Assembly (NCBI GenBank): GCA_944323365.1
Contig: CALUSG010000034.1
Span: 1 to 39,535 of the forward strand
Direction: 5' to 3'
Origin: Candidatus Gastranaerophilales bacterium
GTDB taxonomy: Bacteria; Cyanobacteriota; Vampirovibrionia; Gastranaerophilales; Gastranaerophilaceae
DNA: 39,535 nucleotides
In this document: positions 38,498 to 39,535 of the stretch, one piece after another
Layout: the number at the start of each line of letters is the position of its first letter
Numbering within the stretch: position 1 is the first letter of the stretch
Notes under the pieces: model-generated
Database searches by the model: none
What the model saw: the letters and a program-made list of their open reading frames with translations, nothing else
What the model was told of the DNA's origin: nothing
Translations under genes and position numbers: made by a program

Positions 38498-38555
38498 AAA
38501 TGTTTCCTTTCGGGGGTTAACTGACATTTCGGCTAATAAAAACCAACCTGTTACT

Positions 38556-38584
38556 ATCATAGCAGAAACATTTTTTATGCTGAA
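38556..38584 (-). promoter_or_regulatory. Candidate promoter of the AGCS-ACT operon
   Basis: On the minus strand TTCAGC (38584-38579), 17 bases, TATGAT (38561-38556), about 60 bases before the chosen ATG. The -10 box is good, the -35 weak. Confidence 0.45.
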
Positions 38585-38627
38585 TTTTTTTGACAAAATG
38601 TTAAAATATCGTTGCAAAAATAATATG

Positions 38628-39377
38628 TTACTGCCAAGGATAATCGTCTTTAATTTCCCAGCCGTCTAACAAAATCAAATATCCACATGTATATGAATTA
38701 CCGGTTGCACAGTTAGAAAGTGCCGACTGTCTAGTTGAAGCATAACGATAAAATTCAACGACACGCGAATTCAAATTAAAACGCATTACAAAAATATCTT
38801 TTCCCAATGTATTAGGCTTTTGAAAACCATTAACATCTACATAGAAAACAGGATGCAAATATCTATCAACACACGTACCATCCTCAACACTTGTACCAGA
38901 TGCACACCCCGATGTTTCTATGACAATTGAAATAAAAACATTATTAGATAACAACAAAAAATATTTCAATGAATCTTTTCCGGAAGTATAATTACCTGTA
39001 AAAGGTAGTCTTGGACCATCATATTTAATAGATGAAACCGACGTATATCCATAATCTTTTGAAACATTTAAATATGGAATAAAATATTTTTTAACAAATG
39101 TTTCCAATGCTTCTTTTGATGAAAAATTAGCATCATCTGTAGGTGTCCCGTAAATACCTGCCACATCCCACGTTGTTGTATCACCATGTTCTGCCTGTGC
39201 CATGGTTAGCGCTTGAGATATTATTGAATACGTTTGTTTTAATTTGGATACAGTCTGCTTTTTCTGATAATTCGTTATAAGCGTCGGAATTGTCATTGCT
39301 GCCACAATACCGATGATGGCAAGGGTGATAAGCACCTCGGCGAGGGTAAACGCGGCACAACGAATGTTGCCTGGCAT
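38628..39377 (-). CDS. Prepilin-type (type IV pilin/pseudopilin) protein
   Basis: A 249-residue protein with a class III signal: after MPGNIRCAA comes FTLAEVLITLAIIGIVAAMT, with Glu at mature position 5 and the long hydrophobic pilin helix. Prepilin peptidase would cut before Phe, although the usual preceding Gly is Ala. The C-terminal domain has paired cysteines and FYVDVNGFQKPNTLGKDIF, matching the pilin-like gene at the left end of the window. ATG at 39377 lacks a ribosome binding site, and the frame remains open upstream to the window edge through a palindromic repeat, so the true start may lie outside. Predicted surface or secretion-system fibre subunit. Confidence 0.85.
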   Translation of the reverse strand: MPGNIRCAAFTLAEVLITLAIIGIVAAMTIPTLITNYQKKQTVSKLKQTYSIISQALTMAQAEHGDTTTWDVAGIYGTPTDDANFSSKEALETFVKKYFIPYLNVSKDYGYTSVSSIKYDGPRLPFTGNYTSGKDSLKYFLLLSNNVFISIVIETSGCASGTSVEDGTCVDRYLHPVFYVDVNGFQKPNTLGKDIFVMRFNLNSRVVEFYRYASTRQSALSNCATGNSYTCGYLILLDGWEIKDDYPWQ

Positions 39378-39427
39378 GTCTACGTGCGTAGCACCGGCTT
39401 TCTTTTTAAAGTCGTTAAGTTCTTTAA

Positions 39428-39488
39428 TGTCATTCTGAGCGCCAGCGAAGAATCTCCGCAGATCCTTCGGCTTCGCCTCAGGATGACA
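39428..39488. repeat. 61-bp REP-like imperfect palindrome
   Basis: The arms TGTCATTCTGAG (39428-39439) and CTCAGGATGACA (39477-39488) are reverse complements but for one base, and the inner parts AGCGAAGAATC and GATCCTTCGGCTTC continue the stem with few mismatches around CCGC. It is GC-rich and of the kind TGTCATCCTGAG...CTCAGAATGACA widely dispersed in bacterial genomes. It is in frame, without stops, with the prepilin gene downstream on the minus strand. Confidence 0.8.
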
Positions 39489-39535
39489 GATATCCGCAAA
39501 ACCCTTGCTATTTCTACTTAGGAGAGTCGCCCCCC

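Follow-up and report, generated by a model that had tools for sequence, protein, structure and literature searches.

The window, a stretch of 39,535 nucleotides, comprises the entire contig C34 of a genome assembly of Candidatus Gastranaerophilales (G000; 1.70 Mb, 97% complete) and ends within a type IV prepilin gene on its minus strand (Table 1). The encoded protein scores above the cut-off of the N-terminal methylation family PF07963 (26.3 bits; cut-off, 21.2) and also above that of TIGR02532, and the prepilin peptidase family PF01478 is represented in the same genome (C58:29936–30328). Cleavage of the window prepilin is predicted between positions 39351 and 39350 (A↓F). An earlier note on this DNA had described a frame that continues upstream of the ATG at 39377 through an imperfect palindrome to the window edge; this frame, including its reading across the palindrome (CHPEAKPKDLRRFFAGAQND), is confirmed and extends from the stop codon at 38628 over 301 aa with an open 5′ end.

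Table 1. Features of the prepilin locus at the end of contig C34 (↓, predicted cleavage site).
Feature	Position	Strand	Properties and basis
Entire gene with leader	38517..39535	-	1,019 bp, identical to contig C28 of G011 but for one base (39444)
Prepilin gene	38628..39377	-	249 aa counted from the ATG at 39377; PF07963 N-terminal methylation motif at residues 6–29
Leader 3′ part and N-terminal coding cassette	39200..39419	-	GC content above that of the gene body; 82–92% identity at several loci of G010, G002, and G009
Translated prepilin leader, visible part	39351..39535	-	GATLLSRNSKGFADI-[palindrome]-IKELNDFKKKAGATHVDMPGNIRCAA; frame conservation
In-frame ATG (MPGNIRCAA↓FTLAEV)	39375..39377	-	No Shine-Dalgarno-like sequence
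REP-like imperfect palindrome in leader, in frame (CHPEAKPKDLRRFFAGAQND)	39427..39488	-	62 nt; arms, folding, copy search
Poly-G tract stump	39530..39535	-	GGGGGG, the last six bases of the window; G9 in the G011 orthologue

Both the start codon and the Shine-Dalgarno sequence of the window gene lie beyond the end of the contig, and the full tract is also missing from the assembly. The orthologue on contig C28 of another species (G011) has a G9 tract that is preceded by AAGGAGG and ATG AAG TTG AGC GGA AAC AAC, with the Shine-Dalgarno sequence and the ATG 21 nt upstream of the tract. The main feature at the window locus is a poly-G switch truncated by the window edge; the ATG next to the cleavage site is a candidate internal start but unlikely to serve as the main one.

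The near-identity to G011 covers the gene and its leader, whereas the adjoining symporter gene shows mostly 83–92% identity (150-bp windows). This points either to a recent exchange of a whole pilin gene between species or to a chimera at the contig end. A chimeric or contaminating terminal kilobase from the co-occurring G011, in which case the palindrome would not be native to G000, accords with the drop in identity at the neighboring gene and with the position of the only palindrome copy of G000 within this very block. However, the two genomes agree in gene order across the junction, as would also be expected if the gene had been exchanged by homologous recombination. We consider a chimera fairly unlikely, an estimate that stands apart from those for the readings discussed below and is compatible with the preferred one. 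Even a chimera would leave the nature of the feature unchanged; it is intact in G011 and in two further assemblies (G002 and G010).

Homopolymer tracts and coding phase

The window prepilin, used as a protein query against G000, yielded 61 matches, some of which are several pieces of one gene. Among the best matches read, nearly all close paralogues carry a run of about nine Gs upstream, and another group carries a C run. Runs of at least eight Gs occur 30 times in G000 (either strand), and all but two are located just upstream of a prepilin gene (28 of 30), either in an open frame that precedes the prepilin (25 runs) or in a separate short ORF (three runs; C28, C44, and C68). In each of the latter cases (L080, L084, and L089, respectively), the prepilin behind the tract-bearing ORF has its own Shine-Dalgarno sequence and ATG. 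The tract-bearing frame at C28 terminates in an ATGA that overlaps the start of the pilin gene, an arrangement suggestive of phase-variable translational coupling.

Of the two other runs, one lies elsewhere (C50). The other (L444, C46:32350–32784) is an in-frame G10 tract close to the N-terminus of a gene whose product resembles a radical-SAM protein (CNCDCDFC), possibly a phase-variable enzyme unrelated to pilins. Several contigs of G000 end in or near prepilin genes with G tracts (C29, C34, C54, C56, C58, C59, C68, and C85), so that such repeats probably break the assembly.

In a family-wide pattern search, 40 of the 191 genomes (11 of the 41 genera) showed this architecture; the control with the reversed pattern gave no match. 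The GTDB records with such a locus belong mostly to Candidatus Gastranaerophilales, among the matches listed. Together, G000, its relatives, and the GTDB scan provided 160 distinct tract-bearing leaders (again among the matches listed). Start codons were picked by their Shine-Dalgarno match, independently of frame; such a start is present upstream of the tract in 150 of the leaders collected, at a distance of 18–69 nt.

The resulting phase calls, which rest on single consensus assemblies whose homopolymer lengths may err by a base, place six prepilins of G000 in the ON and 19 in the OFF state. The ON group consists of four G10 copies, one C10 copy, and, on C17, a G9 copy whose flanks differ; the OFF group consists of fifteen G9 and four C9 copies. 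One paralogue on C54 (L091), in which the tract is interrupted (GGAGGGGGG) and FTLAEV is replaced by FKLAEV, looks from its sequence to be locked OFF and decaying. In G011, one prepilin is ON and 37 of the 40 scored tracts are one base short of ON. Over all leaders, the three phases are unequally represented, with 95 one base short, 30 in the third phase, and 25 ON (of 150; p = 6e-14).

The shortest tracts have 8 or 9 bases and the longest 15. The bias toward one base short is found at both of the modal lengths (G9 and G10), with each length fitted to its own downstream frame. From the one-base-short state, translation would meet a stop codon at a median of 9 nt past the tract. The bias at both lengths and the early stop make this state look like a selected ground state. 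The excess is larger than simple random switching predicts; it fits a phase variation that is mostly OFF but leaves room for programmed slippage.

Variation in tract length is also evident among close relatives. The leaders of L090 and L092 are 99% identical and differ by one G, and two syntenic pairs (L072/L434 and L097/L427; synteny judged from 82% identical upstream DNA) are ON in G000 and OFF in G011. The family shows two characteristics of phase-variable simple-sequence-repeat loci, namely a mutable homopolymer between start and gene and the occurrence of ON and OFF alleles among close relatives.

Alternatively, the tract might be a programmed slippage site, at which −1 ribosomal frameshifting or slippage of RNA polymerase on G9 or G10 would provide a fixed, low in-frame yield from the one-base-short state without any switching of the DNA. 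Such a site would account for the dominance of this state at both modal lengths, each in its matching frame, and for its prevalence in G011. The early stop past the tract fits as well but would equally serve a tight OFF state, and the existence of tracts in the ON and third phases, the spread of tract lengths, and the single-G difference between near-identical leaders speak against fixed slippage, which we regard as unlikely.

Translation of the leader

The pattern used for the GTDB scan did not select for an open frame. Nevertheless, the prepilin frame is free of stop codons after the tract in 152 of the 160 leaders, whereas the other two frames are stop-free in only 3 and 2 leaders and contain on average 3.4 and 5.0 stops per leader. 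Clustering of the leaders at 75% similarity gave corresponding counts of 99, 3, and 2 (of 104). The open frame in the window is therefore not a matter of chance. Of 281 substitutions between similar leaders, 133 fall on the third codon position, which is thus favored (p = 1e-6). An in-frame ATG, GTG, or TTG downstream of the tract is lacking from 34 of 157 leaders, whose translation must therefore pass through the tract. The scored leaders are 18–118 aa long (median, 50 aa), and the residue at position −1 of the cleavage site is A or G in all 160.

A promoter-like element (TTGAN-N16-18-TATAAT) is located between tract and pilin in 55 of 157 leaders, compared with 2.1 expected from codon shuffling. 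An ATG follows the −10 box at exactly 6 nt in 40 of these 55 leaders, a spacing that is possibly that of a leaderless transcript, and 18 of the 23 TTGAC-TATAAT-ATG elements in G000 are located in prepilin leaders. The arrangement TTGAC-N18-TATAAT-N6-ATG is conserved inside translated leaders of G000 (e.g., C12:8240–8277 and C9:22007–22044). Some pilins may therefore have a second start that is independent of phase.

These elements would also be in agreement with another reading, according to which translation begins only after the tract, for example, at the ATG at 39377 or at a leaderless ATG behind an internal promoter, and the leader with its palindrome is an untranslated 5′ region. However, a single frame is kept free of stop codons even in the part of the leader upstream of the element (55 of the 55 leaders with room to test it, versus 3 and 15 in the other frames), substitutions show the third-position bias of coding sequence, and a considerable share of the leaders offers no in-frame start after the tract. 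Moreover, the ATG at 39377 lacks a Shine-Dalgarno-like sequence, and no match to the TTGAN-TATAAT pattern was found by eye in the window leader. A start after the tract is thus quite improbable as the general mode of expression.

The palindrome as part of the leader

The arms of the palindrome comprise 12 nt and are 92% complementary, and its predicted RNA folding energy (−32.3 kcal/mol) is far below that of shuffled sequences (−17.5 ± 3.0 kcal/mol; z = −5.0). A search of Rfam gave no match other than a tRNA. A phage origin was also rejected; phage records gave no match, and viral contigs gave no match to the exact N-terminal pattern.

REP elements are short imperfect palindromes that occur in many dispersed copies and are associated with a RAYT (Y1_Tnp) transposase. 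The palindrome of the window is likewise short and imperfect, and it is dispersed and clustered in some relatives (54 matches in G010 and 24 in G002). Unlike REP elements, it is present in G000 only as the window copy, which rules out a multi-copy element of this genome, and also in G011 as a single copy. Y1_Tnp was absent from G000, the copy-rich G002, and G011, with one found in G010, so that a RAYT-driven mobility in G000 was rejected. In G010, half-palindromes form clusters with a spacing of about 100 bp (C8:36551–36915, C16:63–289, and C6:77371–77598).

Almost half of the copies in G002 (11 of 23) are located between the G tract and the prepilin cleavage site, in the same orientation throughout and free of stop codons; in G010, the share is about 2 of 38 (duplicate removed). 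The earlier note had regarded a lack of bias toward prepilin genes as evidence against its interpretation, and such a bias is present in G002. In-frame copies were seen exclusively in prepilin leaders, with the remaining copies checked just for a nearby prepilin. The leader copies of G002 read [CR]HPE...RFFA.AQ[ND]D or parts thereof and mostly follow an SKGF[AE]xI-like motif; several have further palindromes nested inside but remain in frame. The common preceding motif suggests a single insertion that was copied along with the leader, and we infer from these sequences that one ancestral palindrome probably travelled together with its leader cassette. Other relatives have long leaders with repeats of other kinds, in which the frame stays open over as many as 196 codons.

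Three palindrome-bearing leaders of G002 (L143, L340, and L341) have no in-frame ATG, GTG, or TTG between the palindrome and FTLAEV, so that the palindrome must be translated if these genes are made. Neither the window nor the G011 orthologue shows a start codon backed by a ribosome-binding site between repeat and prepilin leader, which the earlier note would likewise have counted as contrary evidence; in the latter genome, ribosome-binding site and start lie upstream of the G tract and not between palindrome and pilin. Together with the stop-free prepilin frame, this lends good support to one half of the earlier interpretation, namely that the palindrome is a translated leader extension. The other half, in which the palindrome would be a handle for the recombination of pilin cassettes between loci, is not supported and very improbable: although leader and N-terminus are indeed mosaic among paralogues of G000 (96% and 92% identical, respectively, versus 56% for the body) and the whole window gene matches that of another species with one mismatch, the mosaic copies lack the palindrome, the near-identical block spans the entire gene instead of ending at the palindrome, the single copies in G000 and G011 leave no partner for recombination, and the leader copies elsewhere are few (G010) or mostly share the same preceding motif.

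A proposed phase-variable prepilin repertoire

We propose that the locus belongs to a large phase-variable prepilin repertoire, in which a slipped-strand switch is placed in a long, cleavable leader and the palindrome is an in-frame passenger; on the strength of the comparative sequence evidence, we assign this reading a probability of roughly 0.74. The assembled genomes themselves contain the tract, the upstream start, the conserved frame, the ON and OFF alleles, and the in-frame palindrome, from which we infer switching within populations, cleavage of the leader, and a role at the cell surface.

In most members of the family, a Shine-Dalgarno sequence and an ATG are followed by about 6–23 codons, a poly-G or poly-C tract (usually 9–11 bases), roughly 70–300 nt of translated leader, the cleavage site ((A/G)↓FTLAEV), and the pilin. 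The gain or loss of one base by a slipped-strand event in the tract would bring the start into or out of the pilin frame. In the commonest OFF state, the frame would stop about 9 nt past the tract; in the ON state, a leader of mostly 45–118 aa would be synthesized, and the prepilin peptidase would presumably remove it. Because the leader is presumably cleaved off, its sequence would be nearly free as long as the frame stays open, and a palindrome inserted into such a leader would survive there as a passenger because it can be translated.

A tentative and somewhat doubtful extension is a coordinated switchboard, in which almost every pilin would sit one base short of ON with an immediate stop and only one or a few of some 25–40 would be made at a time, through either a rare +1 slippage of the DNA or, on the G run, programmed frameshifting or slippage during transcription.

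Phase variation by a poly-G tract is documented for pilC1 and pilC2 of Neisseria (Jonsson et al. 1991, as summarized in PMC5953494 and PMC4471445), where changes from G10 to G9 turn expression from on to off (PMC5231331). The prepilins resemble pilC in that a run of at least nine Gs lies inside the frame of a pilus gene and the gain or loss of one base truncates the product. However, Neisseria has one or two such genes, which encode tip adhesins and not pilins, whereas in the present case the number of prepilin genes with such a tract is about 25 or higher per genome, and the tract is located within a long leader that is presumably cleaved off. The number of poly-G-switched genes per genome is reminiscent of the contingency loci of Campylobacter, in which many surface genes are switched (e.g., PMC6321876 and PMC8437040). 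Those studies concern mainly surface-modification genes (capsule and LOS), whereas nearly all tracts described here serve prepilins, at one position.

For class III (type IV prepilin) signal peptides, the published leaders measure 6–26 aa (PMC4471445). The present family shares with them A or G at position −1, the FTLAEV motif with Glu5, a hydrophobic N-terminus, and a prepilin peptidase in the genome but differs in its long, mosaic leaders, which carry other repeats. It is an outlier in leader length, which is no reason to deny its membership in the type IV prepilin family. Palindromic elements that are inserted in frame and translated are also known from Rickettsia, where elements of about 150 bp encode a conserved peptide in unrelated genes (Ogata et al., as summarized in PMC10969869); by contrast, the palindrome of Gastranaerophilales is only 62 bp long, and its in-frame copies were found in prepilin leaders only.

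Poly-G switching across tens of prepilins with leaders of mostly 45–118 aa was not found in the literature searched, which also yielded no account of phase variation or of poly-G pilins for Gastranaerophilales or Melainabacteria (the search covered few subscription papers). The same literature does describe pilus genes switched by a poly-G tract within the reading frame (Neisseria pilC) and palindromes that stay in frame (Rickettsia).

The cleaved leader would represent a tolerant location in which repeats, palindromes among them, can accumulate in frame, and gene callers may misplace the starts of such pilins. If the model is true, it would help to explain why contigs end at pilin genes in these assemblies, and the tract lengths found in metagenome reads would directly reveal the pilin repertoire. 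The surface of a widespread, uncultured gut lineage would then be diversified by tens of independently switchable pilins.
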